Origin: Flavobacterium resistens
GTDB lineage: Bacteria > Bacteroidota > Bacteroidia > Flavobacteriales > Flavobacteriaceae
Length of the DNA: 64,000 nt
Reading direction: 5' to 3'
Assembly: GCF_900182645.1 (NCBI RefSeq)
Contig: NZ_FXTA01000003.1
Coordinates: 434,001 to 498,000 of the forward strand
Below, one piece after another: positions 9,655-27,744 of the stretch. Position 1 is the stretch's first letter. Each line of letters starts with the position of its first letter. A program made the translations under genes and the position numbers. The notes beneath the pieces are model-generated. The model was given only the letters and a program-made list of their open reading frames with translations, searched no databases and had not been told where the DNA came from.

Positions 9655-11700
9655 TTAATTAAAACTATTTTTAAAATTACAAATGCCACTTTGGAGCCAA
9701 TTCAGATAATCATCGATATCTGGATTATATGCCGAAGTTTCATTTAGTGCTTCGCCTTCGTTATTTACCAATACGTAAAAAGGCTGAGCATTTGTTTTGT
9801 ATTTAATGGTTTGGAATTCACTCCATTTTTGTCCAATATATTTAATTTTTCTGCCTGTCAATTTCGACACAACCTGTTCGTTTTTAGGCAATTCTCTTTT
9901 ATCATCAACATATAAAGAAATTAAGACAAGATCATCTTTCAAAACCTTAAGGACTTTTTTGTCAGACCAGACATTATCTTCCATTTTTCGGCAATTCACA
10001 CAGGCATGTCCGGTAAAATCAATCATGACTGGTTTTCGCATTTTTTTGGCGTATGCCATTCCTAAATCATAATCGGTAAAAGCAATAATATTGTGTGGAC
10101 CAAATTCTGCTCCGGCTGGCAATTTTGATGGCAATTCATCGGAATTAGTTCCTAAGCCATTCGGAATTTCACTGTAATTCAACGGTGGCGGAAAACCGCT
10201 GATTAATTTCAAAGGCGCACCCCAAATACCTGGAATCAAATAAATTGTAAAAGATAAAACGACGATTCCAAGACTTAATCTCCCAACGCTGATATGCGAT
10301 AAAGGACTATCATGCGGCAATTGTATTTTTCCTAATAAATAAAGACTCAGCACTGCAAAAATCGCAATCCAAATCGCTAAAAAAGTTTCCCTTTCCAGCC
10401 AATGCAATTGCAGCACCAAATCGGCATTGGACAAAAATTTAAAAGCCAAAGCCAATTCTAAAAATCCTAAAAATACTTTTACCGAATTTAGCCATCCACC
10501 TGATTTTGGCAACGAATTCAGCCAGCCCGGAAAAGCCGCAAATAAGGTAAACGGCAAAGCCAAAGCCAGAGAAAAACCAAACATCCCCATAAAAGGTGCA
10601 ATTCCTCCTCTTGAAGCAGCTTCCACCAATAGTGTCCCAACAATTGGACCTGTGCATGAAAACGAAACAATTGCTAAAGCCAAAGCCATAAATAATATTC
10701 CGATAATCCCGCCTCTGTCTGCCTGACTGTCTACTTTATTGGCTAATGAATTGGGAAGCATAATTTCAAATGCACCCAAAAATGACATTGCAAAAACAAT
10801 TAAAAGGACGAAGAAAATCAGGTTAAACCAAACATTTGTCGAAAGCGCATTCAGCGAATCGGCACCAAAAGCCCAAGTTACAACAGCTCCTAGAAAAATA
10901 TAAATCGTAATGATAAAAATACCGTAAAAAATAGCTTTTCTAATTCCCTGCGATTTGCTTTTGCTTTGTTTGGTAAAAAAACTTACCGTCATAGGAATCA
11001 TCGGGAAAACACATGGCGTAAGCAAAGCAGCAAAACCAGAGAAAAATGACAATATAAAAATTGTCCATAAACTATCTAATTCGGCTTTATTCAGCTTTTT
11101 GTGAACAACTGGTTTTGTTGGTAAAACTGTCTTTTCCTGAACCGGAATTTCGGCTTTAACTTCTGCCAATAATGAATCTGTTTTTATTTCTTCAACAACT
11201 TCAACAGGAGCAATTTCTTTTACAATTGCGGCATTGGCACTGATCGTTGCGTTTACATCAAACTCAAGTTCATCATAACTCGGCGGAAGGCAATTTTCAT
11301 CATTGCAAACCATATATTCAACCTCCGTTTTGATTTTAAAAGACTTTTTTCCAATGTTTTTTATACGTTGTCTAAATGTCGTTTCTTTTTCAAAAAACTT
11401 AATTGACATTTTGAAAACAGGATCATTTATGGTTTTTCCTTTCTCTTCTCTTACATTTCCAATCAATTGAAAATCTGGAGTTTTAGTAAAAACAAAATGC
11501 GTTGGAATTGGGCCTCCATCAGAAACTTCCTGGCTGTATAAATGCCAGCCTGTGTCTAAAGTTGCTTTTGCCTGCAATTCATATTCAGTATCTGAAATCT
11601 TTTCGACACTGGTTTTCCACTTAATGGGAGTATAAATTTGAGCCTTTACCATTATTGTAAACAACAACAGCAAACTCACTAAAAATATGTTCTTGTTCAT
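9655..11700 (-). CDS. dsbD: Thiol:disulfide interchange protein DsbD
   Basis: DsbD carries electrons from cytosolic thioredoxin across the inner membrane to periplasmic reductases. The 681-residue protein shows all three parts: a signal peptide and N-terminal beta domain with a Cys pair in MVCNDENCLPP near residue 132, a core of about eight membrane helices with the redox motifs LTPCVFPM and SFSCTGP, and a C-terminal thioredoxin domain with ACVNC near residue 563. It lies 144 bases after the M16 protease gene and faces the same way, so it may be co-transcribed with the cluster that encodes two periplasmic thioredoxin-fold proteins. Those are likely electron acceptors; this is inferred from context. 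Confidence 0.93.
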   Translation of the reverse strand: MNKNIFLVSLLLLFTIMVKAQIYTPIKWKTSVEKISDTEYELQAKATLDTGWHLYSQEVSDGGPIPTHFVFTKTPDFQLIGNVREEKGKTINDPVFKMSIKFFEKETTFRQRIKNIGKKSFKIKTEVEYMVCNDENCLPPSYDELEFDVNATISANAAIVKEIAPVEVVEEIKTDSLLAEVKAEIPVQEKTVLPTKPVVHKKLNKAELDSLWTIFILSFFSGFAALLTPCVFPMIPMTVSFFTKQSKSKSQGIRKAIFYGIFIITIYIFLGAVVTWAFGADSLNALSTNVWFNLIFFVLLIVFAMSFLGAFEIMLPNSLANKVDSQADRGGIIGILFMALALAIVSFSCTGPIVGTLLVEAASRGGIAPFMGMFGFSLALALPFTLFAAFPGWLNSLPKSGGWLNSVKVFLGFLELALAFKFLSNADLVLQLHWLERETFLAIWIAIFAVLSLYLLGKIQLPHDSPLSHISVGRLSLGIVVLSFTIYLIPGIWGAPLKLISGFPPPLNYSEIPNGLGTNSDELPSKLPAGAEFGPHNIIAFTDYDLGMAYAKKMRKPVMIDFTGHACVNCRKMEDNVWSDKKVLKVLKDDLVLISLYVDDKRELPKNEQVVSKLTGRKIKYIGQKWSEFQTIKYKTNAQPFYVLVNNEGEALNETSAYNPDIDDYLNWLQSGICNFKNSFN

Positions 11701-11844
11701 GGGTAAAATTTTAGAAAAGAGGGCTGAATAGCAAAAAACAACCCTCTCGTAAAATCCGATATTACAACTAATAATGCTTACTAATTCAAAATATCAATTG
11801 ATTACGGAAGTACAAATTAAATTCTGGCTAAAATAGGTGTCAGA

Positions 11845-14661
11845 TTATTTTAATGGCTTGAAAACAACTTCCATAGCATCTGCTTTATCTAAAACTGAAA
11901 CTGCAAATTCCTGAATATCTTTTGCAGTAATGCTTTTTACAATATCCACATAATTTTTAGGATCGTTCATATTGTAATCGTTCTCAAAATAATTATAAAT
12001 CAAGTTCATGCTGTAACTATTGAAGTTTTTGCTGTCTTCTCTTGATTTCAAATAATTTGTTCTTGTTTTCTCGATATCTTCAGCAGCGATTTCTCCTTTT
12101 TTAATTTTATCAATTTCCTGATAAACAATTGGCAATAAATGCTCTACTTTATCAGCATCACAATCAAAATTAATTTGAATGTTTACTTTTGAAATCGGAA
12201 GTTTATCAATGCCTGCTTTTACGCCCGCACCATAAGTTCCGCCCTCTTTTTCACGAAGACTTTCCGTATAACGCAACGTCAGAATATCACCTAAATATGA
12301 CGCTAAGATTCTGTTTTTTTGAGTAAAAGCACAATCTTTTAAAAATGCGATACGAACCGAGCTTTTTGGTGTTTCCATTTTAATGAAAATATCGCGATCA
12401 ATTTTATTCGAAACCCATTTTGGAACGTTTGTTTTAAACTTTTCCTTGCGTTTAATTCCGTTTATACTCGCAATATATTTTTCCAATAAAGGTTTCAGAA
12501 CTTCTGGCGAAATATCTCCAACAATATAAAATTCAAAATTTGAAACATCTGCAAAACGATCTTGGTAGAATGATTTCATTTTATCAAAAGACAAATCATC
12601 AATATATTTTTGGTTGAATGGCAGCACTCTTGGATTATTTTTTCCATAAACCACAGCTGATAAACTGTCTTCCATTTTTGCATTAATGTCATTTGCTCTG
12701 TTTTTCAACGAATTTTCCAATCGTTGTTTTAAAAGCGCATACATCTGATTATCAAATCTTGGCTGAACAAAACGCAAATGAACCAATTGCATCATCGTTT
12801 CTATATCTTTTACATTTGCAGAACCCGAAACTGTTTCTTTAAGCGAACTGATGCTTACTGAAGAATTAGCAATTTTTCCTTTTAAAACTTTTTCCAAATC
12901 AACATTTGAAAGTTCTCCAACTCCAGACATCATTGCCAATACCGTAGCACGACCAATTGATGGAAGATCTTGTGGCTCATACAATGAAGTCCCGCCAAAA
13001 CTTTCTGCTTTAAGTTCTACCTCTTTTTTGTTTTTATCAGCAAATTTATAGTGCACTTTTACGCCATTGCTCAATACAAAAGTTGTCGCATCAATTGCAG
13101 TTTCTTTTTTTTCTGAAACAATTTTTCCCGAATTGATTTTCAGATTTCCTAAAAGTGTTTTCCCTTCAAAAGTATCAACATATGGCTGCAATGACGCATC
13201 ATTTTCAGCTTTCTGAATAATATCAAAAGCTTTTTCCTGGCTTAGATTTTCTTCACCTTCTACTCCTGTTACGGTGATAACACGATTTTGTTTTGTGTAT
13301 AATTTGGCAATTTGATCTTGCAGAATTTTGCTATCCAGACTTTTCAAAATGCTTTTCGTCATTTCAAATTCTACTTTCGGGTCTGCAATTATTTCATGAT
13401 CCAAATAATCGTCTTTCACCATTTCGATTACTTGTTTATGCGAAATCTCATTTAATTTTTCTAAATAATTTTCGTAACCCGAAATAGTTTCCGTAACGGC
13501 TCTTTCAATTTCTCCTTTTGAAAAACCAAATTTATACGCTCGAACCCATTCGTTCATAACAGCTGCGAAAGCTTCGGCTTGTTTTTCAGGTTTTGGCGAA
13601 ACATTTAGAATCCATATATCGTTCAAACGTGAATAGTTTTGATAGCCAATTTGTGCACTTTTAAACGGACATTCTTGTTTCTGAGCCAATTCAGCCAAAC
13701 GATTATTTAAAATTGAAAAAGCAATACTTTTTTCTGTAGATTTTTCTAAATCGACGAAAGTTCCGGTTGGTTTTTCAGCTGTATGACGAATCATAAAACT
13801 GATATTAGAAGCCGAAATTTCTTTATCCAAAGCCAATTTGAAAGTTGGTTCTTCTTTCTCAGGAATTGCAATTTCAAAACGTTGTTTAGGATTTTGAGGC
13901 GTCGGAATATCAGCAAAAAGTTTTTTGATTTTCGCCTCAATTTCATCTGAATTAATATCTCCAACAATAGCAATCGCCTGCAAATCCGGGCGATACCAAT
14001 CTTTATAAAAATCTTTTAAAACTTGATATTTGAAGTTTTTAACGATTTCCATATCGCCAATCGGCATGCGGTCTGCATAAAGCGAATTATTGTAATAATA
14101 AGGCGCCAATTGATTGTAAATTCTTGCTCGGGCATTTTGTCTTGTACGCCATTCTTCGGTAATTACGCCACGTTCAGCATCGATTTCTTCATTTGTCAGA
14201 GACAAAAAATTTGACCAATCGTGCAAAACCAGCAAACATGTATCGACAACGCTTCCATCTTTTGACGGAATATTATCTAAATTGTAAACTGTTTCGTCTG
14301 TGCTAGTATACGCATTGATATTTTTCCCAAAAACGGCTCCTTGTTTTTGAAGCGTATTCAGAATTCCTTTTCCTTCAAAATGTTTGGTTCCATTGAAAGC
14401 CATATGTTCTAGAAAATGCGCCAAACCTTTCTGTTGGTCGTTTTCTAAAATCGAACCTACATTTTGAATAATGTAATAACTCGCCGTATTTTTATTTACA
14501 TCAGTTGGATAAATGTAATACGTCATTCCGTTTGGAAGAACACCTTTTTTGATTTTTTGGTTGACCGCAATTGGGTCTGTTGCTTTAAAATTCTGCGCTT
14601 TCGCGGATGAAAAACATCCAACGATGAATAATAAAATTGATATTTTTTTGCTGTACTTCAT
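11845..14661 (-). CDS. M16 family zinc metallopeptidase, periplasmic
   Basis: The 938-residue protein has a signal peptide (possible lipobox ending at Cys16) and two tandem M16 halves. The first half holds the inverted zinc motif HFLEH (His82, Glu85, His86) and the third ligand Glu163 in DAERG, the spacing expected of pitrilysin-type enzymes. The second half, from about residue 515, lacks the motif and probably forms the other half of the closed peptide chamber. M16 enzymes cut peptides small enough to enter the chamber. The gene starts 11 bases after the TlpA-like gene, so the two are translated together. In this cluster it probably degrades an imported peptide. Confidence 0.9.
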   Translation of the reverse strand: MKYSKKISILLFIVGCFSSAKAQNFKATDPIAVNQKIKKGVLPNGMTYYIYPTDVNKNTASYYIIQNVGSILENDQQKGLAHFLEHMAFNGTKHFEGKGILNTLQKQGAVFGKNINAYTSTDETVYNLDNIPSKDGSVVDTCLLVLHDWSNFLSLTNEEIDAERGVITEEWRTRQNARARIYNQLAPYYYNNSLYADRMPIGDMEIVKNFKYQVLKDFYKDWYRPDLQAIAIVGDINSDEIEAKIKKLFADIPTPQNPKQRFEIAIPEKEEPTFKLALDKEISASNISFMIRHTAEKPTGTFVDLEKSTEKSIAFSILNNRLAELAQKQECPFKSAQIGYQNYSRLNDIWILNVSPKPEKQAEAFAAVMNEWVRAYKFGFSKGEIERAVTETISGYENYLEKLNEISHKQVIEMVKDDYLDHEIIADPKVEFEMTKSILKSLDSKILQDQIAKLYTKQNRVITVTGVEGEENLSQEKAFDIIQKAENDASLQPYVDTFEGKTLLGNLKINSGKIVSEKKETAIDATTFVLSNGVKVHYKFADKNKKEVELKAESFGGTSLYEPQDLPSIGRATVLAMMSGVGELSNVDLEKVLKGKIANSSVSISSLKETVSGSANVKDIETMMQLVHLRFVQPRFDNQMYALLKQRLENSLKNRANDINAKMEDSLSAVVYGKNNPRVLPFNQKYIDDLSFDKMKSFYQDRFADVSNFEFYIVGDISPEVLKPLLEKYIASINGIKRKEKFKTNVPKWVSNKIDRDIFIKMETPKSSVRIAFLKDCAFTQKNRILASYLGDILTLRYTESLREKEGGTYGAGVKAGIDKLPISKVNIQINFDCDADKVEHLLPIVYQEIDKIKKGEIAAEDIEKTRTNYLKSREDSKNFNSYSMNLIYNYFENDYNMNDPKNYVDIVKSITAKDIQEFAVSVLDKADAMEVVFKPLK

Positions 14662-14672
14662 AAAGCTAATTA

Positions 14673-16055
14673 TTAACCTTTCAATAATTTATCCAACTGC
14701 ACTCTCAATTCCGGATTTGACGGACGAAGTGCATCGGCATTGATGATATTTCCTTTTGTGTCAAACAATAAAAATCTAGGAATAGCATTTACATCGTAAT
14801 TTTTAGCCACATCAGAGCCAAAATCTTTATCTGCCATTAACTGAATTCCTTTTAATTGTTCTTTAGTCACAAAATCTTTCCATTTTTGAGCATCTTTTGG
14901 TTTGTCTAACGAAAGACTTACAAAAACGATATTTTTTCCGTGATAATCTTCTTCGATTTTTTTCATGTGTGGAATCTCCGCTTTGCAAGGTCCGCACCAA
15001 GTTGCCCATAAATCGATGTAAACAAATTTACCTTTAAAATCTGAAAACGAAACTGGTTTATCGTTTATGTCGTTATAGGTGAATTCAAGTCCTTTTTGAC
15101 CCACATTTTTATGAAGTACTTTTTCGTATTCGATTAAAAACGTTTTACTTGCATCAGAAATCATATACGGTTTGATGCTTGGAGCGATTTTTTCATATTC
15201 TTCAATTTTCATTCTTGAAGTTGCTACCCCATCACGAAGATAAACATCTTTTAAAGCCGGTTCTGTAATATGTGTAATTGCTTCAGCCAAATCCAAACGT
15301 TTTGGCGCATCACCACTATTCATTGTTACATAAAAGAAATAATTTGACATTAATGAGAGACCGTTTTGCAATTTTAACAAATCAGCATCCGTAAATTTTT
15401 TGTCTGTTTGCCAAGTTTTGATAACTGCTGGGCGATCGTCTTTATCAGGAAAAGCGCTTCTTGGCATTCTGAAAAAAGTGTACGTCAATTCTTCAACATC
15501 AGTCGCTACGGCTAATTTTAATAATTTATCAAAAACTGCATCTTTGGTTTTAATGTTTTTTGAAAATTCATTTGCTTTTGCAATTCCTTTATCAATCCAC
15601 GGATAAAAATCAACATACGTAATATTAGTTCCGAGTCTCGAAAATGGTGCAAATTCGTTGTAGATTTCATTTGCTTTTTGAACCAAAGCATTCTGTCCAA
15701 CATTTTTGCCGCTTAAAACATAATTCTCTTTATTGATCAAAAGGCTAATGTCTAATTTTGGTTCCAAGTACAAACGAATCAATTGATTTCTACTTTTCAT
15801 CTGACCGTAATCAACGTAATAAAAACCAGCTGCTGAAACCGGTATCATAAAGCCAAATTCCCCAAGTGTGTTGACTTTTGCAGTTGCAGCTACCGCTGGT
15901 TTTCCTTCTTCGACATTATAAAGTGTAACTTCTTTTGCTTTAAAATCTGGAATTGAAACTGTTCCTTTAATAACTGCATATTCCGAAAAATTTGCAGCAA
16001 AACTCACCTGAACCGCAAAGCAGATCAAAATGAAATTGAAAATGTGTTTTTTCAT
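14673..16055 (-). CDS. TlpA-like thioredoxin-fold thiol oxidoreductase
   Basis: The 460-residue exported protein (signal peptide residues 1-20) ends in a redoxin domain with WATWCGPC near residue 350 and a cis-Pro loop near VNAIPRF. The N-terminal part, with a DUF4369-like beta region at about 25-110, and the helical middle resemble the many Bacteroidota TlpA-like proteins. It is expected to reduce disulfides in the periplasm with electrons from DsbD, encoded downstream. It is 28 bases after the aspartic protease gene and 11 before the M16 gene. Confidence 0.88.
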   Translation of the reverse strand: MKKHIFNFILICFAVQVSFAANFSEYAVIKGTVSIPDFKAKEVTLYNVEEGKPAVAATAKVNTLGEFGFMIPVSAAGFYYVDYGQMKSRNQLIRLYLEPKLDISLLINKENYVLSGKNVGQNALVQKANEIYNEFAPFSRLGTNITYVDFYPWIDKGIAKANEFSKNIKTKDAVFDKLLKLAVATDVEELTYTFFRMPRSAFPDKDDRPAVIKTWQTDKKFTDADLLKLQNGLSLMSNYFFYVTMNSGDAPKRLDLAEAITHITEPALKDVYLRDGVATSRMKIEEYEKIAPSIKPYMISDASKTFLIEYEKVLHKNVGQKGLEFTYNDINDKPVSFSDFKGKFVYIDLWATWCGPCKAEIPHMKKIEEDYHGKNIVFVSLSLDKPKDAQKWKDFVTKEQLKGIQLMADKDFGSDVAKNYDVNAIPRFLLFDTKGNIINADALRPSNPELRVQLDKLLKG

Positions 16056-16083: not shown

Positions 16084-17556
16084 TTAAATTGAAATTCGCA
16101 TCGATTGATCGCCTTGTTCAATGATGAAATCTTTGCTTTCTTTATTTTCTTTCAGCTTTTTGAGATTTTCCGGATTCAGTAAATCTTTGGCTTCAAAATC
16201 ATTTATTTGAGTGACTTTGGCACCTTCCTTTACTTTCTTTAAATCTTCATTTTGCTGATCTATGATTCTTTTTACTACCAAGTTTTGGTTTTCATCAAAA
16301 TCTAAATTCATTCCGCCTAGATAGAAAGAAGACATTTTTTTGAAATTTTTATTCGGTTCTAAATAAACCGTTTTATGCAAAAGATCGATTGTGAAATTGA
16401 AACGTTTTATTAAATCAATTCCGAGTGATCCATCGGCGAAAGCCCAGCTTTTATTGGCTTCATCATATTCCTGCAACGCGATGGTTACGTTTGGAAAATT
16501 ATTTCCGTTAATCGCTACATTTGGAATCGCCCCCCCGACAATTTTAGTTTGTTTTCCTAAACTGTAATTCACCGAAGTGTATTCTGTTTTTAGACTTGTT
16601 TCCAGATTATTTTTATGATTGAAAGGACCGTAAGCAATTAAATCGTAACCTGCTCCGGTATCAAAAGTGAAACTGCCTTCGACTGTTTTTTTATCTTCAA
16701 AAGTCAGACTCATTTTTACTACCGGAAGCCCCGATTTATAGTCAAAAACAAATGGTTTTGCTTTTCCCCAGTAATTGAAATTTCCGAAATTGTACAAATC
16801 AATTGTCATCGTATCAAAATTGACAGAAGTAATAAAATTGCGAAGCAGGTTTGCACCAAATAATCCATCATAAACGCCATGTTTTGGAAAAATAACCAAG
16901 CCTTGATTCTTCAAAACCTGATCGCCAATATAAATGGTATTGTCTGCTGAATATTGTACTTGCTGACTTCCGCCAACCACAGAAGCCGATTTATTTTTGG
17001 TAACCACAACTCCAGCTTTGTAAGCGCTGTCAGGATTCAAAGCCATTCCGTCTGCGCCGGTATCAAAAAGCATTAAAAATTCGCGATCGGCTTTGTTTAG
17101 TTTTATTTTGATGGCGATTCCGTTTTCGACAATTTGAAACGGAATGCTTGCTACTTCTTTTACAACAGCATGACGGTCAACTTTATACAAACCATCAAAA
17201 AAGGTCACATACAAAATTTTATTATCTGAATTGAAAACAATTTGAGATGGCTTTTTTTCTTTTCCTTTGAAACAAAAATCGGCCAAAACAAAAGTTTCAT
17301 TTTTAATTGCTACCGATTTTACCATCTGAATAGAATCCAGAACAGGAAATGCATTGAAAATTCCGTTTAAATAAAATTCATTTGAAGAAGCATCTCCAAC
17401 ACCAACAGTAAACTCTGGAGCTAAAAGACTTTTAATCTCACTATAACTTTTATTTTGAAATGCTTTTTCGAAAGATTCAATAGATTTTTGAATGCTGTTT
17501 TGAGCATAAATAGAGCATCCAAAAATCAATATTGAAAACAAGAATAACTTTTTCAT
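16084..17556 (-). CDS. Aspartic protease with two DTG motifs and a C-terminal PDZ domain
   Basis: The 490-residue protein has a signal peptide (residues 1-18), an N-terminal helical/NTF2-like part, two retropepsin-type lobes and a PDZ domain at about 405-485. The catalytic motifs are both visible: DTGAD at 165 and DTGAG at 299, so a single chain could form a pepsin-like two-lobed site. Such aspartyl protease-PDZ proteins are common in Bacteroidota but few have known substrates. The gene lies 6 bases from the upstream thioredoxin gene, which indicates tight co-expression. The PDZ domain may hold substrate C-termini. Confidence 0.85.
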   Translation of the reverse strand: MKKLFLFSILIFGCSIYAQNSIQKSIESFEKAFQNKSYSEIKSLLAPEFTVGVGDASSNEFYLNGIFNAFPVLDSIQMVKSVAIKNETFVLADFCFKGKEKKPSQIVFNSDNKILYVTFFDGLYKVDRHAVVKEVASIPFQIVENGIAIKIKLNKADREFLMLFDTGADGMALNPDSAYKAGVVVTKNKSASVVGGSQQVQYSADNTIYIGDQVLKNQGLVIFPKHGVYDGLFGANLLRNFITSVNFDTMTIDLYNFGNFNYWGKAKPFVFDYKSGLPVVKMSLTFEDKKTVEGSFTFDTGAGYDLIAYGPFNHKNNLETSLKTEYTSVNYSLGKQTKIVGGAIPNVAINGNNFPNVTIALQEYDEANKSWAFADGSLGIDLIKRFNFTIDLLHKTVYLEPNKNFKKMSSFYLGGMNLDFDENQNLVVKRIIDQQNEDLKKVKEGAKVTQINDFEAKDLLNPENLKKLKENKESKDFIIEQGDQSMRISI

Positions 17557-17562
17557 TTCGGT

Positions 17563-18432: not shown

Positions 18433-18449
18433 AAAATGTGGTTTTAGAA

Positions 18450-18482: not shown

Positions 18483-18516
18483 GTATTTTAGTTTTTAAGT
18501 TTTAAATTATCTGTAA

Positions 18517-20019
18517 TTATCGTACACGGTAAGTAACATCGACAATTTTGCATAAGTTCGAATAGCTGTTTTCCAAAATTAAATTTCCATTTACAGGTGG
18601 CACTGTATACAATTCTAATTTTCCAGTTGTGCTGTAAGAACCTACAAGTAATTTGTTGACAATCTCTTTTTTACCTCTCTTGCTGAAACCTAAATAAGTA
18701 ATTTCTTCATTTCCTTTGTCTAACATTAATTTTGCAGATTGCGTTCCGCTATCATATTCATACACTTTGTTTCCAACAGTATAAAATAAATAGCCTGTAT
18801 CTGGACTTACGGCAAATTTTGTTGCTTTATCAAAATCTGGTGCATTTAGAATTTCTTTAAAATAGGTTTGTAATAATGCTGGCGAAAAACGAAGCAACTG
18901 ATATTTTCCTGTTGTAAGATTTTTTAGCACTGCAAAACTTTCCCCTTGATTATAATCAGAACTCGTCATGTAAACCAAATCAGAATTAGTTTTATTCCAA
19001 TCTAAAACAGTTGAAGAACCTACAAGCGGCGGCATTGCGGAACAAGAACCTTTTAAAGTATTAAAACGTAGAAAACGACGTAAATCCCTATCAAAAAATA
19101 CTGGATTATACGGTGACGATACCACGCTTTCTGCAATAAAAGGCGCCGCGTAAAAGTTCTTGGCTTCTGTTTCTACCTTATTTTGTGGTAAGCCATATCT
19201 AATTTGCTGTGCTTTATTATAATAGTAAATGTTTCCATCGCTGTAAAGAAAGTTTTCACCTCCCAAACCAACGGCTTTCATAAAATCGACACCAAAATTA
19301 TTTGGAAGCGCACCACCAATTGTTTCATAAGCGATATTTTGCGTTGGAACCCAGCCGAAAGAATCAGGATCAAGTCTTGCCGTTCCAGATTCTGATGCTG
19401 TAACATAAACACCATAAGTAGGAGAAGTTGTTGGCAATGCCGATGTAAAACAATCTACATCTACCGCCTTTCCTTCTAGTTTCAATGCTGATCCAGAAAA
19501 ATCTAAAACATCATTGATAATACGAATATTTGTACTTCCTGGAATTATAGAAACCATATCCAGACGTGCTTTCCCATCGACATTACCAATAATCATCCAG
19601 CCTTCGTAAATAGAAGAAACAACATTTAATGTAAAAGGTTTTTGCTGCCATCTTACGCCCGTTATTTTATCTTTTATAAAATAATAAACCGTGTATTTTG
19701 CAGGCGGCAATTTTAAAACATCATTATAATCTTTTGTAGTAGCAATCGTTGTTCTGGATTCTGATGCTAATTTAGAAGGATTAACAGCTACCCATTCATA
19801 CTCATAGCGATCTTTAGTACTACCATCATCCAATGTTGGATTTAAATTTGGTTTAATCACAAACGGATCGCCATTATAAACAGTATACTCTTCTTGTATT
19901 CCCGTAACATTTAATTCGTTTATGGCATTATAATCGTAATTTCCTTCGTCGTTTGCACAGCTCCAGTTCAAAAGCACAAGCACGAGCAAGACCAATTGTA
20001 TCTTTATATTTTTAAACAT
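18517..20019 (-). CDS. PKD-like/beta-propeller surface lipoprotein of a SusCD cluster
   Basis: The 500-residue protein has a lipoprotein signal (Cys near residue 21, NWSCAND), a PKD-like beta-sandwich at about 35-135, and then repeated beta-rich blocks such as DGNIYYYNK, SDLVYMTSS and GYLFYTVGNKVYEYD that suggest a beta-propeller. Proteins of this kind (PKD-like family) are regularly encoded with SusCD and DUF4843 genes. It probably sits on the cell surface and helps bind the substrate; the ligand is unknown. It is the last gene before the hairpin at 18450-18482. Confidence 0.78.
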   Translation of the reverse strand: MFKNIKIQLVLLVLVLLNWSCANDEGNYDYNAINELNVTGIQEEYTVYNGDPFVIKPNLNPTLDDGSTKDRYEYEWVAVNPSKLASESRTTIATTKDYNDVLKLPPAKYTVYYFIKDKITGVRWQQKPFTLNVVSSIYEGWMIIGNVDGKARLDMVSIIPGSTNIRIINDVLDFSGSALKLEGKAVDVDCFTSALPTTSPTYGVYVTASESGTARLDPDSFGWVPTQNIAYETIGGALPNNFGVDFMKAVGLGGENFLYSDGNIYYYNKAQQIRYGLPQNKVETEAKNFYAAPFIAESVVSSPYNPVFFDRDLRRFLRFNTLKGSCSAMPPLVGSSTVLDWNKTNSDLVYMTSSDYNQGESFAVLKNLTTGKYQLLRFSPALLQTYFKEILNAPDFDKATKFAVSPDTGYLFYTVGNKVYEYDSGTQSAKLMLDKGNEEITYLGFSKRGKKEIVNKLLVGSYSTTGKLELYTVPPVNGNLILENSYSNLCKIVDVTYRVR

Positions 20020-20053: not shown

Positions 20054-20830
20054 TTAAGGAAAAAGCATTTCTGTACCATTTTCTTCATAAATCGTATTTC
20101 CGGCTGCTTTTTGTTCAACCAAATAACGTTTCATAAAACTTTGGTAATACTGAACCTCCGGAATTGATAAACCAACGGCTCCAGGTGATGAATTAAAAAT
20201 CACAGGATCCAAATGCATTAAATCGCACATCATAAAGAATTTCTTGGCAGAAAAAGTTCCAAAAAAACCTACTATCCATCCTTTTGGCTGTGATAAAAAA
20301 TCATCAATCGTTAATTCAAAACTTATAAAACTCATTGTTTTCTTTGTCAAAGCATTGGTCACTCTAGTTTTCATTTCGGTTTTGAAAAATTCATTTTCTT
20401 CTAAATTAAAAACTAGAGAAAATGTACTTTTTTTCATATCAGGAGTTCTAATAACTTGTACCCTAATTGTATCAACTACTTTCCCGGCAGGGATAATTAT
20501 TTTGTCAGGTATTGTAAAATGGGTTCCTTTTATTGCTGTACTCGAAGGATCGATACTAACTTTTACTTCTCTGTCAACATTGCTTGCTTTTCCTTGTACC
20601 GCAATAGGAATTTTAAACAAACGTCCTGTAATAGTAGGATTATCTAAACTAAAACTTAGACCAATACTATCCGTCAGTACTTTGGCACCATTAAGAGAAA
20701 TATAAGAAACTACTGCAGGCGAAAAATAGATATTATCTTTACCACTGTAGGTTTCGATTTCTTCTTTAGTACAAGATGAAAATCCTGCAATAAAAAGAAG
20801 CGTAATACTTAAAATCAATATTTTTTTCAT
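20054..20830 (-). CDS. DUF4843-like lipoprotein
   Basis: The 258-residue protein has a lipoprotein signal (Cys near residue 20, GFSSCTKEE) and a Calx-beta-like beta sandwich, as in DUF4843 proteins. These are found only beside SusCD pairs, and I know of no assigned function. The gene lies 12 bases after susD and 34 before the PKD-like gene, so it belongs to the same transcript. A surface accessory to the SusCD complex is the likely role. Confidence 0.75.
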   Translation of the reverse strand: MKKILILSITLLFIAGFSSCTKEEIETYSGKDNIYFSPAVVSYISLNGAKVLTDSIGLSFSLDNPTITGRLFKIPIAVQGKASNVDREVKVSIDPSSTAIKGTHFTIPDKIIIPAGKVVDTIRVQVIRTPDMKKSTFSLVFNLEENEFFKTEMKTRVTNALTKKTMSFISFELTIDDFLSQPKGWIVGFFGTFSAKKFFMMCDLMHLDPVIFNSSPGAVGLSIPEVQYYQSFMKRYLVEQKAAGNTIYEENGTEMLFP

Positions 20831-20842: not shown

Positions 20843-22291
20843 TTAGTTTTGAAAATTAGTTTCCGACTCTGGCAATGGAACAACGTATTGCAAAGCACCC
20901 ATTGAAACATTTCCTGATGTCGCTGCACCATTAGGAATTGCTGTTGTATTATTTCTTTTGTAATAGAAAAAAAGCTGTCCTTCGCCAATAAATTCTTTTC
21001 GATATTCTTTTGTAATTTCTGTAGCTAATACAGCCGTTGCCGCCAGATTAGTTAAACCTCGATTAAATCGCAGTGTATTCAAATAAGCTATTCCATCAGC
21101 AGGAACTGCAGCCGTTTCTGCCGCGATCAAATACATTTCTGAAAGTTTAAGCATCGGAATCTGCAAACGAAATATTTTTGTTTTATCTGTTACATCTTCA
21201 TATTTGAAAAATGTTTTTTGGGTTTTTCCTCCAATGATTGGAACCTTCCAACTTGGCAAACTTCTATAATCATTATCATTAGATTCAAAAACCGCATTTA
21301 TTCTATTCAACAAAGGAGCATAGATTTTAGTGTCTTCTAAATTAGAATCGTATAAATCTCGCTGTTTGTTATATAAAGTATAATCGCTTAACGAAAAGAA
21401 ATTTTCTGAAGAAAAAGTACGATCAGGATTAGATGCATTTGTAGCATCTAAAAATGAAGTCCATGGAAAGAAGGTTGTGTTTTTAGTAAATGTGATTACT
21501 TCATTTGCAACAATAGAAGCATTCGTTTTGTCTCCTGAATATAAGAGAACACGCGCTTTTAAACATTTTACAGCCAAATAATTCATTCGTTGTCCGCGAT
21601 TTTGAGAATAATACGGATTAGCATCAAATGCTGTCGAAGGGCTATATTTGCCAGTAGTAAGTATTGGATCATTTGCCAATAAAACCAAAGCGGCATCAAG
21701 ATCTGTAATAATTTTAGCAATAACATCTTTAGCAGGCAAAATTGGTTTAGTGCTTGGCGTATATGCATCATAATAAGGAATAGACGGATCTGCTGGAGCA
21801 ACTTTATAAATTGGCCCGTATAATCGAAGCATATCAAAATGAATCATTGCGCGAATTGCAATAGCTTCTCCTTTTAACATATTGGCTTTTTCAGCTGATA
21901 TTACTTCTGGATGCTCATTAATGCTTTCCAAAAATTTATTAGCAGTTAAAATTGTCGTAAAAGCACTTTTCCAAATACCATTAAATATCGATTTTGGAGC
22001 AGCTTCAGCATAAGCATAAGCCGCAGTTCTAATTCTAATATGAGATCCTGAAATATTGTACTGCTGTCCTAAAATCTCTACAGCATCCATAGTAAGATGT
22101 CTGCCATACAAATTAGTTCCAGTCAACTGCAAATAGATTCCATTATGCGCATTTTGAATTCCGGCTTCAGAGCTATAGGTCTGCTCTTCTAAAATTTTGT
22201 CTTGTGGAACTACATCCAAAAAATCACTACAACTTGCTAGAGTTAGCGATGCAAGCAAAAGGAATGTAATTTTATATAAATACTTATTCAT
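20843..22291 (-). CDS. RagB/SusD family substrate-binding lipoprotein
   Basis: SusD proteins cap the SusC barrel on the cell surface and bind substrate. The 482-residue protein has a lipoprotein signal with Cys near residue 21 followed by SDFLDVVPQD, which is the typical SusD start, then helical TPR-like repeats, and RLQIPMLKLSEMYLIAAE near residue 380, the conserved C-terminal block. The gene starts 10 bases after susC. Its substrate is not evident from sequence; neighbouring proteases point to a peptide and not a glycan. Confidence 0.92.
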   Translation of the reverse strand: MNKYLYKITFLLLASLTLASCSDFLDVVPQDKILEEQTYSSEAGIQNAHNGIYLQLTGTNLYGRHLTMDAVEILGQQYNISGSHIRIRTAAYAYAEAAPKSIFNGIWKSAFTTILTANKFLESINEHPEVISAEKANMLKGEAIAIRAMIHFDMLRLYGPIYKVAPADPSIPYYDAYTPSTKPILPAKDVIAKIITDLDAALVLLANDPILTTGKYSPSTAFDANPYYSQNRGQRMNYLAVKCLKARVLLYSGDKTNASIVANEVITFTKNTTFFPWTSFLDATNASNPDRTFSSENFFSLSDYTLYNKQRDLYDSNLEDTKIYAPLLNRINAVFESNDNDYRSLPSWKVPIIGGKTQKTFFKYEDVTDKTKIFRLQIPMLKLSEMYLIAAETAAVPADGIAYLNTLRFNRGLTNLAATAVLATEITKEYRKEFIGEGQLFFYYKRNNTTAIPNGAATSGNVSMGALQYVVPLPESETNFQN

Positions 22292-22301: not shown

Positions 22302-25300
22302 TTAAAATGATAAATTAAGACTCAAAGAATATATTCTTGAAAAAGGATAATCAATACCTCTTTCTGCTTTAATAGTTGAAACACGGAAGAATTCATTTGC
22401 CAAAGCATTAAATCCTAAAGCTGTAAGTCCATTTCTTTTTAACCAGGCTCTGTCAGTTATACGGTAACCTAATCGAATAGATTCTCCAGAGATATAATCA
22501 TCCTTCTGAATAAATCTTGAAGAAATTGGTGTTGAATTTGTCATGCTAATTCCTTTAAACTGAGCAATCTGCCCTGGTGTAGTCCAACGATCTGTAAAAG
22601 CTCTGGCATCTTGGTTATCAAAAATATTATCTTTTGAAATGTTTTCAACTTTGTCATACAATGCACTATTAAATCGCTCTGCACCAAAACTGTATCTCAC
22701 AAATAAGCCAAAACTAAAACCTTTGTAATTTAAATTTGTCGACACCACTCCTGTAGCCGTTTCTCTAGAATTCCCCATTACTACTTCATCTTTTTTATCA
22801 AGAATAAAAGTAGTCTGGCCATTTTTCTTTAAGAAAACTTCTTTTCCAGTTGCAGGATCAATTCCTAATGAAGGTACAGCCCAAAGATCATTGCTGCTGG
22901 CACCATCATAATATCTGATCAAACTGGTTGTTTTTTGAGCTGCATCATTTAAAGAAGCTAATGTATTGCCAAAACCACCTAGTTTATTATCTCCAGTAGT
23001 TCCCATTAAACCGATTCCCCATACAAAATTTCGGCTCAAATCGTAGATAAAATTATAGTTCATTTTTAGCTCTAATCCTTGTGTCGTTAAGTAACCAACA
23101 TTTAAAGGATAACCGTTAATACCTGACGAAGCAGCAAGATCAATTGCTACAATTTGTGGAGACGTTTTACGTTTGTAAGCACCCAAAGTCATTGTTAATC
23201 TATTTCTAAACATTGCCAGATCTAATCCTAAAGACAAATCTTTGGTTCTTTGTGGTTCTAAATCTGCATTTGCAACTTGAGAAATTGATAATGCTGGTCC
23301 AAAAATGTTCGTATTTGCACTATAAGAATACACATCATAAGAAGCATAACCGGCTAAATTCTGGTTTCCTGTCTGACCAATATTGGCACGTATTTTAAAA
23401 ATATTGACAATATCTTCGTTCATTTTAAACTCATTATTCAAATTCCATCCAAATCCAATTCCCCAATAAGGCGAATATTTTTTATTTGTTCCGAAATTAG
23501 TTGCTCCCGAAATTGTGTGCGTAAAATCAAATAAAAATCGGCGGTCGTAAGCGTAGTTAATTTGGTTTGTCAAGTCGACATTTCGAATTAATTCAGTAAA
23601 AATTTCTGGTTTACCATTTGGTTCATATCCGAAAGCAAATGAAGGATTTCCGGGAACACCAAGAGGGAAACCTCTTAAAAATGATTTATAAGAATTGTTT
23701 TTTGTCTCTGAAGCCGAAGCCCTAATCGTGTAATTAAAAGAATGAACACTTTTAAATACATTTGAATAAGTAGCCCCAAGATTAGTATTCCATTTATCTG
23801 TAATGGCTTCATATCTGCTATAAGTTCCTTTTTCTGTTGCAATATTACTTATAAAACGAGTATCGTCTGGAGAGACAAAAACGGTATTGTAATTATTCAA
23901 TCTTGAAACCGATAAAGCTCCCGTTGCCTTAATATGCGGGTTAATATCATAATTAATCGCAAAGTTATTCGTAAAATTAAAGTCGCTTCCCTTGTCATAA
24001 CTTGGCAAAAACACATTGTAAAGCGGATTTGTCGCGTGATTTACTATAACAGATTGGTTTGCTGGAATTGGCAATGAAGTTCCGTCTAGATAACGTGTTA
24101 CTACTCCGTTTTCATTATATTTTGGATAATACGGACTTGCTTTTGCCCAAATGTCAAATGTTCCATATGGCGATTCTTGGTTATTTCCTCCAGAAACAAA
24201 AAATTGATTATTAAAACTTAATTTATTTTTTCTGTAAGTCAAAGTTGCATTATAGCCCCAAGTATCGTGCTCAGAACCTTTCATTGTTCCTGTTAGTGTT
24301 TTATAATTTCCGGCAATGTTAAATCTGAATTCATCTGAGCCTCCGCCAAAATTCAAACTATGACCAGAAGTAATCCCCATCTGGATTGGTTCATTCAACC
24401 AATACGTGTTTACTCCACGTCGTACTGCAGCCAAACGTTTGTTGTACTCCTGATCCCATTTGTACTGTGTTGCTGCGGCAGCGCCATCTCCAGCATAATA
24501 AGCATTAGATAACCTTTCAAACTCTAATTTTTGTTCGGCACTCATTAAATTGTAGACACTCAAATCGGCTACTTCATAAGATGAATTATATACATAATTG
24601 AATTGTAATTTTCCAGGAATTGGCTTATTCGTTTCAATAACCACGACTCCGTTTGCAGATCGAGAACCGTATAATGCTGTCGAAGCAGCGTCTTTTAATA
24701 ATGTAATAGTTGCAATTCTGTTAATATCTAAATCGACAACTTGCTGCAAAGTAGTTGGAAATCCGTCCAAAATAAACAACGGTTGATTTGGGTCGTCTCT
24801 AAATTGGCTGTCCACCTGATTTGCAGTTAAACTTGTCTGCCCTCTCACCTCAATCGTTGGCAGAACATTTGGATTTGAACCTGCAATATTGTTATTCACA
24901 ACAATAAAAGAAGGGTCTAATGATTTTAAGGCCTGAACTGCATTTTGAGTAGAAATTTGTCTTAATTCTTCTCCTCTAAAAGTAGTTACTGCACCCGTTA
25001 TCAATTCTTTTTTACGAACTGTAACTCCGGTATTTACTATAACTCCTTCAAGTTCTTTTCGCTCTTCCAGAAGTTTTACATTGATAAGTTTTCTATTATT
25101 AACCTCCACAATTTGCGCACGATGTCCAATATAAGTAAACAAAATTTGTCCATCTTCTGGAGCTATGATGGTATATTTTCCGTCAAAATCAGTTTGAGAG
25201 GCAGCGCCTGTACCTTTTACTTTGATGTTTACACCCGGAATAGGATCTCCTTTATCATTGGTAACAATACCTTTAATTTCAATCAATTTTGATTGAAAAA

Positions 25301-25685
25301 CGACAACATTTTCCTTTGGTAATTTTCTAACTAAAATTGTATTTCCGTTTGATAAACTAAAATCGAAATCTTTATTAGGAAAACTGGCTTCTAATAAATC
25401 ATTTACTCTGATTTTACCTTTTTTCAAATGTACTTTCGGTAGTTTCTTAAATAAATCTTCCTGATAAATAAAAGTGTAGTCTGTTTGCTGTTTTATAAGA
25501 TCAAAAACTTCGTCAACAGTTACCGTTTTATCGGTTGCAATTACAATTTTTGTGTTTTGTGAAAATAAATTTGCGGGTGAAAAACCAAAAATTGCAGTAC
25601 AAAACAAGAATATAAAAGTTCTCATAATGTTAATAATTAGTCTTTTTCTAAAATAGAAAAAGACGTCGGTTAATTTAAATTTCAT
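22302..25685 (-). CDS. SusC/RagA TonB-dependent transporter with STN signalling domain
   Basis: This 1127-residue outer-membrane transporter has an exported N-terminus, an STN (secretin/TonB short N-terminal) domain at about 50-115, a carboxypeptidase-regulatory-like domain at about 137-215, a plug domain at about 225-350 with the LKDAAST block, and a barrel ending in SLNLSF. The STN domain normally contacts a FecR-type anti-sigma protein, and fecR and the ECF sigma gene lie just upstream in the same orientation. Substrate binding would therefore switch on the cluster. A second ATG 20 codons in (NIMRTF) is a possible alternative start and gives a better signal peptide. Confidence 0.93.
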   Translation of the reverse strand: MKFKLTDVFFYFRKRLIINIMRTFIFLFCTAIFGFSPANLFSQNTKIVIATDKTVTVDEVFDLIKQQTDYTFIYQEDLFKKLPKVHLKKGKIRVNDLLEASFPNKDFDFSLSNGNTILVRKLPKENVVVFQSKLIEIKGIVTNDKGDPIPGVNIKVKGTGAASQTDFDGKYTIIAPEDGQILFTYIGHRAQIVEVNNRKLINVKLLEERKELEGVIVNTGVTVRKKELITGAVTTFRGEELRQISTQNAVQALKSLDPSFIVVNNNIAGSNPNVLPTIEVRGQTSLTANQVDSQFRDDPNQPLFILDGFPTTLQQVVDLDINRIATITLLKDAASTALYGSRSANGVVVIETNKPIPGKLQFNYVYNSSYEVADLSVYNLMSAEQKLEFERLSNAYYAGDGAAAATQYKWDQEYNKRLAAVRRGVNTYWLNEPIQMGITSGHSLNFGGGSDEFRFNIAGNYKTLTGTMKGSEHDTWGYNATLTYRKNKLSFNNQFFVSGGNNQESPYGTFDIWAKASPYYPKYNENGVVTRYLDGTSLPIPANQSVIVNHATNPLYNVFLPSYDKGSDFNFTNNFAINYDINPHIKATGALSVSRLNNYNTVFVSPDDTRFISNIATEKGTYSRYEAITDKWNTNLGATYSNVFKSVHSFNYTIRASASETKNNSYKSFLRGFPLGVPGNPSFAFGYEPNGKPEIFTELIRNVDLTNQINYAYDRRFLFDFTHTISGATNFGTNKKYSPYWGIGFGWNLNNEFKMNEDIVNIFKIRANIGQTGNQNLAGYASYDVYSYSANTNIFGPALSISQVANADLEPQRTKDLSLGLDLAMFRNRLTMTLGAYKRKTSPQIVAIDLAASSGINGYPLNVGYLTTQGLELKMNYNFIYDLSRNFVWGIGLMGTTGDNKLGGFGNTLASLNDAAQKTTSLIRYYDGASSNDLWAVPSLGIDPATGKEVFLKKNGQTTFILDKKDEVVMGNSRETATGVVSTNLNYKGFSFGLFVRYSFGAERFNSALYDKVENISKDNIFDNQDARAFTDRWTTPGQIAQFKGISMTNSTPISSRFIQKDDYISGESIRLGYRITDRAWLKRNGLTALGFNALANEFFRVSTIKAERGIDYPFSRIYSLSLNLSF

Positions 25686-25796: not shown

Positions 25797-26942
25797 TTAT
25801 TTGATTATAATCTTATTGTCTTTTTTCTCATAGGCATTAATAAAATTAATATTCTTGATCGTGGTTAATATATCTTCTAATTTTTGATTTTTGTTCAAAA
25901 CACCATTGAATCTAACATTGCCGAGTGCCGGATCTGCAAACTCAATATCAACATCATACCATCTTGACAATACTCTTGCAATATCTTTCAAAGGCATTCC
26001 TTTAAAAACAAACAATCCTTTTCGCCATGAAATTTCGTTGTAAACATCAACTTCTGAAATTGCAATGCGATCATCACTTTTGCTGATTCTCGATTGTTCG
26101 TTTGGCGCTAAAATTTCTTTATTACTTGCATTGCTAACCGCAACTTTTCCTTCTACCAATGTGGTATAAATTGCCGTTTCGTCTCTGTAGGCTTTGATAT
26201 TGAATTCGGTACCAATAACCTCTACATTTTGCATTGCTGTTTTTACCTTAAACTTAGAGCCTTTGTGTTTTGTGCTTGGAGAAACTTCAAAATAAGCCTC
26301 GCCATAAACCAACTCTACTTGTCTGATTTCGCCATCAACAAAAGCAACAGGGTATTTTAGTTGCGATTCTGAGTTCAGCCAAACTTTTGTACTATCTGCT
26401 AATTGAACAAAAAACTGTCCTCCTCTCGGAATCGTTAAAAAGTTATTTGCAATCGTTCTAGTATTATTTTTAGAATTATAAATCAATTTTTCGCCGTTGC
26501 TAGTTGCATTTCCTTGATTGTAGGATTCTCCTTTTTTCAGTTCAATTACAGATCCGTCTTCTAGAGTCAATGTTGCTTTGTCGCTTCCAATCAGAATATT
26601 TTTATTAGCAACAACTGGAATATTTTGTTTTGAATTTTTCGCTGTATTGAATAATAACGAAATTGAAATCAACATTGCAACTGAGGCCGCAACTGCAACT
26701 TTAAAGCTTGTTCTGGAATAGAATGGCCTTAACGGAATAACTTTTGTTTCTTCCGATTTTATAGCTGTCTGAATCCGATGCAGCATTTTATTTTGAATTT
26801 CTTCTTTTGATCCTAAACTTTCGTCCCATTCATCTGAAGTTTGGAAACTTTCATAAAAATGCAACATTTGCTTATTCTCCTCCCGATTCGTATCGCCAGA
26901 AAGATATCTGTTTAATAACGTTAAGAATTCTTCTTTTTTCAT
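25797..26942 (-). CDS. FecR family anti-sigma factor
   Basis: FecR proteins span the inner membrane and pass the transporter signal to the ECF sigma factor. The 381-residue protein has an N-terminal cytosolic segment (1-80), one membrane helix at about 83-101, a FecR domain at about 165-265 (GGQFFVQLADSTKVWLNSES and YFEVSP are visible) and a DUF4974 domain at about 305-380 (VLSRWYDVDIEF). It lies 172 bases after the sigma gene and directly before the STN-type susC, so partner assignment is clear. Confidence 0.93.
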   Translation of the reverse strand: MKKEEFLTLLNRYLSGDTNREENKQMLHFYESFQTSDEWDESLGSKEEIQNKMLHRIQTAIKSEETKVIPLRPFYSRTSFKVAVAASVAMLISISLLFNTAKNSKQNIPVVANKNILIGSDKATLTLEDGSVIELKKGESYNQGNATSNGEKLIYNSKNNTRTIANNFLTIPRGGQFFVQLADSTKVWLNSESQLKYPVAFVDGEIRQVELVYGEAYFEVSPSTKHKGSKFKVKTAMQNVEVIGTEFNIKAYRDETAIYTTLVEGKVAVSNASNKEILAPNEQSRISKSDDRIAISEVDVYNEISWRKGLFVFKGMPLKDIARVLSRWYDVDIEFADPALGNVRFNGVLNKNQKLEDILTTIKNINFINAYEKKDNKIIIK

Positions 26943-27114
26943 TTTTTTTTATTATTAATGCAGAAGTATATTAGGTAAGTATCTAAAAAGATATTTACCC
27001 CCTAGTCCAAATTGTATTTTTTTGATTTTTTTTTAATCTTTTAAGAAAAGCCTCGCCGGAAACTAGAGAAATCAACGTTTTAGGCTTAGAATCGGCAATC
27101 ATTTTTATTTTCCT

Positions 27115-27744
27115 TTAAAGATTTTTAGACAGCCATAAAACCATTGCCACGCCCAGTGTACTGCCCATAGACAGACGAATTGTCTGAAGCGCTTTGGTAA
27201 TATGATTTTCAACAGTTTTGGTTGAAATATTAAGACGTTCAGCGATTTCTTTGTGACTCAATTGTTCTTCTCTGCTTAATTTATAAACTGCCTGACATTT
27301 TTCAGGAAGCGTTTCAACAATTAAATGAAGCTGCTGCACTAATTCTTCGTGCATCAATTGTGTTTCAGGTGTAGTATATTGAAATCGTTTTTCTAAATCA
27401 TCAAAAAGTTCGACATGAATTTTGTCTTTGTTTTTTCTCAAATGATTAAAAACCTGATAACGCGCGCAGGCATACATATAGCCTTTTAATGAAATATGGA
27501 TTTCTAGTTTTTCGCGATTTGTCCAAATATTCAGGAAGATATCCTGAATAATATCCTCGCACAATTCTTTGTCTTTAATGACATTGTAAGCCGACACAAA
27601 GAGCGCCTGCCAAAAGGCATTATACAATTCCGTCAAAGCCGATTCATCTCCGGAACGAAGACGATCGATTAAAGTTTTATCTTGATTTGATAACAGTGAC
27701 GGCAAGTTTTTTTGGCTTTTGGTAAATTGAATAATTCGCAACAA
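27115..27744 (-). CDS. ECF RNA polymerase sigma factor (FecI-like)
   Basis: The 209-residue protein has sigma region 2 at about 30-100 (ALFVSAYNVIKDKELCEDIIQDIF, then YMYACARYQVFN) and a region 4 helix-turn-helix at about 140-190 (LSHKEIAERLNISTKTVENH), the form seen in Bacteroidota partners of FecR. A hydrophobic C-terminal tail (GVAMVLWLS) is also usual. No ATG precedes region 2: the upstream in-frame stop is at 27769-27771, and the only start-like codons are TTG at 27744 and a TTG inside the NLPSLL segment. The given start is thus provisional. It should direct transcription of the SusCD cluster. Confidence 0.9.
   Translation of the reverse strand: MLRIIQFTKSQKNLPSLLSNQDKTLIDRLRSGDESALTELYNAFWQALFVSAYNVIKDKELCEDIIQDIFLNIWTNREKLEIHISLKGYMYACARYQVFNHLRKNKDKIHVELFDDLEKRFQYTTPETQLMHEELVQQLHLIVETLPEKCQAVYKLSREEQLSHKEIAERLNISTKTVENHITKALQTIRLSMGSTLGVAMVLWLSKNL

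Follow-up and report, generated by a model that had tools for sequence, protein, structure and literature searches.

Two groups of described systems stand closest to the locus considered here. In RagAB of Porphyromonas gingivalis and BT2261-64 of Bacteroides thetaiotaomicron, a SusC/SusD pair is accompanied by accessory lipoproteins, and the available sections of the sources describe oligopeptides bound in the solved complexes (PMC7782687, PMC11992087, PMC11817032); four ragAB alleles are described in the same partial source (PMC11817032). In Fus-like systems (FusA/FusC, YddB/PqqL), TonB-dependent import takes place beside a periplasmic M16 protease, again according to the available sections (PMC6793856, PMC6071955). 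In this work we analyzed a 64,000-nucleotide stretch of Flavobacterium resistens (contig NZ_FXTA01000003.1; hereafter the window, whose coordinates are used throughout), in which eleven minus-strand open reading frames run from 27744 to 9655 in the order fecI, fecR, susC, susD, DUF4843, PKD2 (family PKD_2), trx7, aspP, tlpA, M16 and dsbD. Our best explanation, which we consider probable, is that this cluster constitutes a regulated protein or peptide import line with an exchangeable receptor cassette. SusCD peptide import and M16-linked protein import are already known and the dedicated reduction arm is the variant; what is new, and of most interest, is the exchange cassette.

The cluster resembles RagAB and BT2261-64 in placing accessory lipoproteins beside a SusC/SusD pair, and the four RagAB alleles parallel its own receptor alleles. 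It differs from both in that its SusC is nearer to another solved homologue, and in that regulators, proteases and a reduction arm are all gathered in a single block. With the Fus-like systems it shares TonB-dependent import and an M16 protease related to PqqL (E 2.8e-68); however, its receptor is a SusCD transporter and not of the FusA/YddB type, and it adds an aspartic protease, Trx7, TlpA, DsbD and FecI/FecR. As in FecI/FecR-STN regulation, there is an extracytoplasmic function (ECF) sigma factor, a FecR with a FecR_C domain and an STN-like SusC N-terminus, although the STN match lies below the cut-off and the regulation is predicted from the genes. In Bacteroides fragilis, SusC/SusD pairs are shuffled by DNA inversion. 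There too a constant SusC start is joined to alternative receptor parts, but in the present cluster the exchange is between strains.

Within the open-licence literature searched, we found neither a description of a SusCD system that includes a reduction arm nor one of exchange of the present receptor block, and by title and abstract none of the open-licence full texts that mention DUF4843 is about transport. The available sections of PMC6793856 mention SusC once, in an outgroup remark on a distant family, and do not mention thioredoxin; the SusCD iron-capture system of PMC5429918 has seven named genes, with no thioredoxin or M16 among them in the part available, and the available part of PMC10434189 holds nothing on the present system. 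The original prediction, made from the sequence of the window alone, had known of no described pathway with this full set. This stands for the combination with a reduction arm, for which no paper was found, but SusCD peptide importers and protease-associated import are described (PMC7782687, PMC11817032, PMC6793856, each available in part).

The evidence for an exchangeable cassette comes from discordant gene histories. In pairwise protein identities across 35 sequences, susC, susD, DUF4843 and PKD2 vary jointly and apart from the other genes. Over 39 loci, SusC from residue 241 onward, SusD, DUF4843 and PKD2 intercorrelate at 0.63-0.86, and aspP, dsbD and fecR at 0.64-0.78, whereas the cassette parts correlate with aspP, dsbD and fecR at only 0.10-0.25. 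SusC residues 1-60 show a flank correlation of 0.84. For the 14 loci with control genomes (91 pairs), SusD, DUF4843 and PKD2 correlate with fecR, trx7, aspP, tlpA, M16 and dsbD at -0.03 to 0.12. The corresponding values in a control starch-type operon (7 loci) were 0.84 for susC-fecI, 0.81 for susC-fecR, 0.57 for susD-fecI and 0.51 for susD-fecR, and those in a second control SusCD operon (8 loci) were 0.92 for susC-fecI, 0.87 for susD-fecI, 0.46 for susC-fecR and 0.56 for susD-fecR; a third was dropped, its ortholog being present in 2 of 13 genomes. The contrast between cassette and controls, which are smaller and partly mosaic themselves, is a matter of degree, yet clear.

Tree comparisons, which left out L074 and L078 and so covered 37 of 39 loci, point the same way. 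The cassette data reject the flank topology (log-likelihood difference 15895, approximately unbiased test pAU 6.2e-56) and the cassette topology is in turn rejected by the data from the flanks (5383, pAU 3.3e-86), and flank and cassette trees have 1 of 34 splits in common, against 16 of 34 for the two flank halves and 21 of 34 for the two cassette halves. Thirty-eight strain pairs, not independent of one another, combine flanks of at least 93% identity with cassettes of less than 80%. The fitted left change point fell at SusC residues 96-144 in 25 of them and at residues 361-393 in 11, the other 2 having it in SusD, with median change points at SusC residue 116 and Trx7 residue 8. At the DNA level, the window and locus L046 are 95-97% identical in fecR and aspP, and 95-98% in aspP and dsbD. 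Identity is 91-100% where susC begins and about 64-80% from there to PKD2. The reverse arrangement, a near-identical cassette on different flanks, is seen between L055 and L056, where susD, DUF4843 and PKD2 are 96.5% identical, whereas fecR, M16 and dsbD are 77% identical. The cassette alleles are many and diverged, identity lying at 65-70% in 440 of 741 pairs, and no silent receptor copies were seen, DUF4843 having only one match in its own genome. In these comparisons, the SusC plug and barrel, SusD, DUF4843 and PKD2 behave as a single cassette exchanged between strains, and a history different from that of the cassette is shared by the SusC N-terminus, the regulators and the majority of the enzyme genes; recombination between strains is the straightforward reading of the discordant histories.

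It is possible, if on the unlikely side, that phages or bacteriocins entering through SusC are what drives the exchange, with the class of ligand staying constant. SusCD barrels can serve as doors for phages or bacteriocins, and the part exchanged is the exposed one, while the signaling part and most enzymes stay; SusD, DUF4843 and PKD2, however, move together with the barrel at the correlations of 0.63-0.86 given above, which a pressure acting on the barrel alone need not require.

The border between cassette and enzyme genes carries an element of its own. The 84 bp that separate PKD2 from trx7 contain a stem-loop, which is recognizable in 35 of 35 Flavobacterium sequences, imperfectly in a few, with 97.0% of 370 cells paired across its 11 pairs. 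Three pairs have changed on both sides (reached by 7 of 500 shuffles), and the covariation score of 0.179, against 0.097 in shuffled data, was reached by none of 500 shuffles. In the genome, a single site carries this exact pattern. Because no clear U run follows the hairpin on the operon strand, we favor an mRNA processing or partial attenuation site, through which the receptor genes and the enzyme genes would be expressed at different levels. As a family-wide element the hairpin was rejected: its CGAATG arm is present in 0 of 38 loci outside Flavobacterium, several of which have other stems. A consensus scan for promoters and terminators served to point at the hairpin and was dropped as operon evidence, its counts being near those of shuffles (85 against 73.8, standard deviation 9.0, and 14 against 10.7, standard deviation 3.3). 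Both the cassette exchange and the hairpin are beyond what the original prediction could see.

The features of the cluster, all on the minus strand, are as follows.

27115 to 27744, minus strand: fecI, ECF sigma factor (TIGR02985, 141.7 bits; Sigma70_r2 and r4_2; listed start codon TTG).
25797 to 26942, minus strand: fecR, anti-sigma factor and signal transducer (FecR 64.6 bits, FecR_C 76.4 bits).
22302 to 25685, minus strand: susC, SusC/RagA TonB-dependent transporter of 1127 residues (TIGR04056, 496.1 bits), with CarbopepD_reg_2 at residues 137-217 and Plug at residues 228-347.
25250 to 25685 (end approximate), minus strand: 5' part of susC, leader and STN-like signaling domain, which appears to stay with fecI/fecR upon receptor exchange.
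20843 to 22291, minus strand: susD, SusD-type lid lipoprotein (SusD-like_3 57.8 bits, SusD_RagB 25.0 bits).
20054 to 20830, minus strand: DUF4843 lipoprotein (PF16132, 77.2 bits).
18517 to 20019, minus strand: PKD_2 lipoprotein, N-terminal PKD/Ig-like and beta-propeller-like domain (PF16407, 81.9 bits).
18449 to 18487, minus strand: RNA hairpin where the receptor cassette meets the enzyme genes (present in 35 of 35 Flavobacterium sequences, covariation).
17563 to 18432, minus strand: trx7, secreted thioredoxin-fold protein (CMPC) with a C-terminal extension (Thioredoxin_2 48.4 bits, Thioredoxin_7 39.3 bits).
16084 to 17556, minus strand: aspP, aspartic protease of pepsin fold with two lobes and an additional domain at either end (Asp_protease_2, 50.6 bits).
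14673 to 16055, minus strand: tlpA, TlpA/ResA-type thiol-disulfide oxidoreductase (WCGPC; AhpC-TSA 65.3 bits, Redoxin 65.5 bits).
11845 to 14661, minus strand: M16 zinc protease, single chain, PqqL type (Peptidase_M16 91.5 bits, M16_C 146.8 bits).
9655 to 11700, minus strand: dsbD, inner-membrane thiol:disulfide electron carrier (DsbD_TM 87.1 bits, DsbD_N 42.7 bits, Thioredoxin_7).

The gaps from fecI to dsbD measure 172, 111, 10, 12, 34, 84, 6, 28, 11 and 144 bp, so that eight of ten are at most 112 bp and the remaining two are 172 and 144 bp; open reading frame coordinates and family matches agree with the eleven leftward genes, their order and the mostly short gaps that had been proposed. 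A SusC/RagA barrel and an adjacent SusD lid lipoprotein, 10 bp apart, make up the SusCD transporter, and the sigma (TIGR02985) and FecR/FecR_C matches are clear. The description of SusC as STN-type stands in so far as its N-terminus is STN-like, but the match of 18.4 bits is under the Pfam cut-off of 28.4 bits. In SusD, DUF4843 and PKD2, a cysteine after the leader fits lipoproteins and is followed in most sequences by acidic residues, which behind a lipoprotein cysteine are a signal for surface export. As had been stated, family searches found no glycosidase or other carbohydrate-active enzyme family among the eleven proteins.

The cluster is a real conserved unit, more than a set of chance neighbors. 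A search with aspP gave 119 relatives, the best 80 of which were kept; the nearest 34 of these 80 loci are from Flavobacterium, all found through aspP. fecR, susC, susD, DUF4843, PKD2, trx7 and tlpA are present in 34 of 34, M16 and dsbD in 33 and fecI in 31, the three loci without it being those where the stretch ends near fecI. As a control in the own genome, the remaining 29 SusD genes lie in 28 other 20-kb regions, none of which holds aspP, trx7, M16, dsbD, DUF4843 or PKD2, and one of which holds TlpA. The conserved co-occurrence proposed as a check was thus found, in all 34 loci from fecR to tlpA, and for M16 and dsbD in all loci but one. The downstream neighbors nagA and a GH3 gene lie within reach in 2 and 1 of the 34 loci and were rejected as members; since they are seldom conserved while dsbD is kept in 33, the downstream border of the cluster is dsbD.

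The other 46 of the 80 kept aspP loci lie outside Flavobacterium, and the 40 exceeding 20 kb were counted. These hold susC in 34, susD in 34, DUF4843 in 34, PKD2 in 35 and a thioredoxin-fold protein in 36, with all five in 33; fecR is present in at least 17 and fecI in at least 11, many stretches ending near susC. Given that M16 is found in none of the 40 and dsbD in 2, the complete gene set is a smaller core that has been elaborated in Flavobacterium. The core outside Flavobacterium is SusCD-DUF4843-PKD2 with thioredoxin-fold proteins, the proteases and dsbD being variable. In the reverse direction, DUF4843 served as the anchor, with each of its 14 matches above the cut-off outside Flavobacterium and with 6 of the 28 weaker ones. 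These matches gave 12 loci with PKD2, from six genomes, which hold susC and susD in 12 of 12 and a thioredoxin-fold protein in 11 of 12 (L190: about 8 kb off), against TlpA in 1 of the 8 DUF4843 loci without PKD2. The distribution of the cluster is patchy: aspP is found at E <= 1e-40 in 13 of 199 Flavobacterium genomes, the own genome included, and at E <= 1e-60 in at least 4 of 345 phylum genomes, all Flavobacterium, a lower bound as few candidates per genome were scored, and DUF4843 scores above its cut-off in 5 of 120 genomes from the family and in 6 of 247 from the phylum.

The aspartic protease carries the motifs D165TG and D299TG, both invariant in 28 of 28 aligned sequences. Its model (predicted local distance difference test, pLDDT, 86.6; predicted template modeling score, pTM, 0.84) is a pepsin fold with a separate C-terminal beta/alpha domain, and its best Foldseek match is 9iy9, a putative Bacteroides fragilis endopeptidase (VIA-align Z 22.5, root-mean-square deviation 3.0, 257 residues), followed by pepsin-like enzymes (Z 16-17.5, residues about 47-404). 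On the model, aspP is a pepsin-fold aspartic protease, and its two lobes, already named in the original prediction, each have a catalytic D(T/S)G. The PDZ domain also named there had no match in the window protein by family search; weak matches occur in 4 of 28 relatives (best 0.00039), and the model has its separate C-terminal domain. The VIA-align list for the protease, which a single domain fills and which therefore does not bear on the point, holds no PDZ entries. Among the thiol-redox proteins, the CxxC of Trx7 is invariant in 18 of 18 sequences, the TlpA WCGPC is kept in 39 of 39 and the DsbD C-terminal motif is CVNC or CINC in 38 of 38. The closest PDB relative of Trx7 is 2kuc, with DsbD C-terminal domains next. 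The genome carries two DsbD_TM loci, and the dsbD rightly assigned to the cluster is the second copy.

The M16 protease keeps HFLEH in 38 of 38 sequences and matches 9ldy (E 7.8e-165), PqqL (6ofs; full-length alignment over residues 34-890, at the E value given above) and 6b03 (E 1.7e-41, residues 23-918), while insulin-degrading enzyme aligns with residues 42-264 only. We take 6b03 and 6brs, labeled putative zinc protease in the structure table, to be FusC. The enzyme is a single-chain M16 protease of PqqL/FusC type with an intact HxxEH, the kind that digests imported proteins; five M16 domain matches lie at three places in the genome. This likeness raises the idea that the line takes up small proteins that are rich in cysteine or carry iron-sulfur centers, in order to gain their iron or sulfur. 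The parallel would be ferredoxin, which Fus digests after import according to the available sections of PMC6071955 and PMC6793856. A cysteine-synthase-like gene between tlpA and dsbD in Echinicola arenosa (L082:12921-14042; 319.4 bits, below the NCBIfam cut-off of 344.15) would fit such a cargo. This hint of sulfur comes from one locus only, however, and we regard the idea as doubtful.

The nearest solved sequence relative of SusC is 8aa4, a 'SusC homolog', with RagA third and the peptide importer BT_2264 seventh. Searches with single sequences and profiles gave no PDB relative for DUF4843 and no convincing one for PKD2, whose two weak matches are L-lysine oxidase, and in neither case did they match the BT2261/BT2262 lipoproteins. 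The PKD2 model (pLDDT 86.3, pTM 0.78) matches propeller-bearing structures in Foldseek (BT1487, BACUNI_02894, cobalamin-binding surface lipoproteins) with query-normalized TM-scores of 0.42-0.47, which reflect a common fold and are no proof of ligand.

The gene set and its conservation, the folds, the catalytic motifs, the discordant histories and the hairpin are the data from which we propose a model of function. In this model, SusC/SusD with the DUF4843 and PKD2 lipoproteins would capture a proteinaceous ligand at the surface and import it with TonB energy, the SusC N-terminus would signal occupancy to FecR, and the FecI thereby freed would lead to transcription of the operon. In the periplasm, the dedicated DsbD would recharge Trx7 and TlpA, and these two would open disulfides of the cargo, allowing the aspartic protease and M16 to cut it into pieces fit for uptake. 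Strains would swap the SusC plug/barrel-SusD-DUF4843-PKD2 block for diverged alleles by homologous recombination and keep the signaling N-terminus, the regulators and most enzymes, so that different ligands, or a receptor that predators fail to recognize, could be joined to the same processing. The nature of the ligand and its disulfides, the electron flow, the auto-induction and the reason for the exchange are what we infer, and the processing steps lean by analogy on the logic of Fus-like systems and SusCD peptide importers. The original interpretation, capture of a cystine-containing peptide or small protein followed by DsbD-driven reduction and periplasmic cutting, is partly supported.

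A more far-reaching version is conceivable, though we hold it only tentatively and would not expect it to be right in full. The cluster would combine a fixed sensor, made up of FecI, FecR and the SusC N-terminus, and a line for reduction and digestion that is also largely fixed with exchangeable cassettes, each for one disulfide-locked peptide or small protein, possibly including antimicrobial peptides of rivals or hosts, and receptor choice would evolve by recombination while signaling and digestion stay compatible. If the import line proposed above is right, Bacteroidota would have a means of uptake in which disulfide reduction and proteolysis are coupled to a SusCD receptor, and protein piracy would reach further than the Fus-like systems. 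The cassette would also offer a natural experiment, with near-identical strains that differ mainly in their receptor, in which ligand specificity, phage sensitivity and signaling compatibility are testable by swaps at the natural breakpoints.

Several observations weigh against the proposed import line and its cassette. For the SusC N-terminus the flank tree is preferred (pAU 0.918), but the cassette tree is not excluded (pAU 0.083), and a weak vertical signal is present within the cassette (Mantel r 0.12, p 0.0035 for aspP-PKD2; r 0.24, p 0.0005 for aspP-susD). The C-terminal part of Trx7 and the C-terminal half of M16 leave the flank history without following the cassette. In the M16 3' half (11845-13200), window and L046 are about 70-76% identical in DNA between neighbors at 93-98%, a diverged copy having replaced it, and the notion that these M16 and trx7 parts move with the receptor was rejected (r 0.08-0.21 with the cassette). 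The sequence ranking of SusC does not point to a peptide ligand, and no conserved paired cysteines were seen in the receptor proteins. Six of the 40 aspP loci outside Flavobacterium are without susC. The enzymes are not fixed either, as the 12 loci with DUF4843 and PKD2 have aspP in 2, a convincing M16 in 2 (the L189 match, weak and on the other strand, is excluded) and dsbD in 1; with thioredoxin-fold proteins in 11 of these 12 and each protease in 2, it is reduction, above any single protease, that accompanies this receptor type. Finally, the thioredoxin-fold proteins and DsbD could serve the folding of the cluster's own proteins.

We think it quite unlikely that the line serves defense together with feeding, importing disulfide-bonded antimicrobial peptides of competitors or hosts to destroy them, with the exchange tracking the toxins. 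Reduction and digestion would suit such peptides, and so would the many diverged alleles (the 440 of 741 pairs described above). In two loci, GldF/GldG-like ABC permeases and an ATPase lie directly downstream of PKD2 (L186:10010-15542 and L190:9739-15223), followed in one by M16; these genes are nevertheless found in 2 of 12 loci and are absent from the present cluster, and no toxin or immunity gene was seen. Similarly improbable is an ordinary polysaccharide utilization system for glycans or glycopeptides with accessory redox proteins. In its favor, SusCD pairs are chiefly known for glycans and the adjacent nagA-like, DUF5009-like and GH3 genes resemble amino-sugar catabolism; against it, the eleven genes include no glycosidase and nagA and GH3 recur in 2 and 1 of 34 loci. 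These neighbors occupy 3862-9466, the GH3 gene having a beta-lactamase-like part, and were named by reading the open reading frames, without a family search.

Further observations concern related regions. In the starch-type control region L135 and its relatives, the genes from susD to the GH13-like genes intercorrelate at 0.78-0.95, against 0.43-0.59 with fecR, a pattern from which receptor exchange may extend beyond the present cluster. The Flavobacteriaceae genome G115 holds five over-cut-off DUF4843 loci, two of them neighboring and one with M16 and DsbD (L182, L183). In Solitalea longa (L104:5259-7004), a trypsin-like protease lies amid thioredoxin-fold genes beside aspP, a different protease in the same place. 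A further SusD gene of the window, at 46955-47467 (contig 480955-481467), is part of the control region L148.

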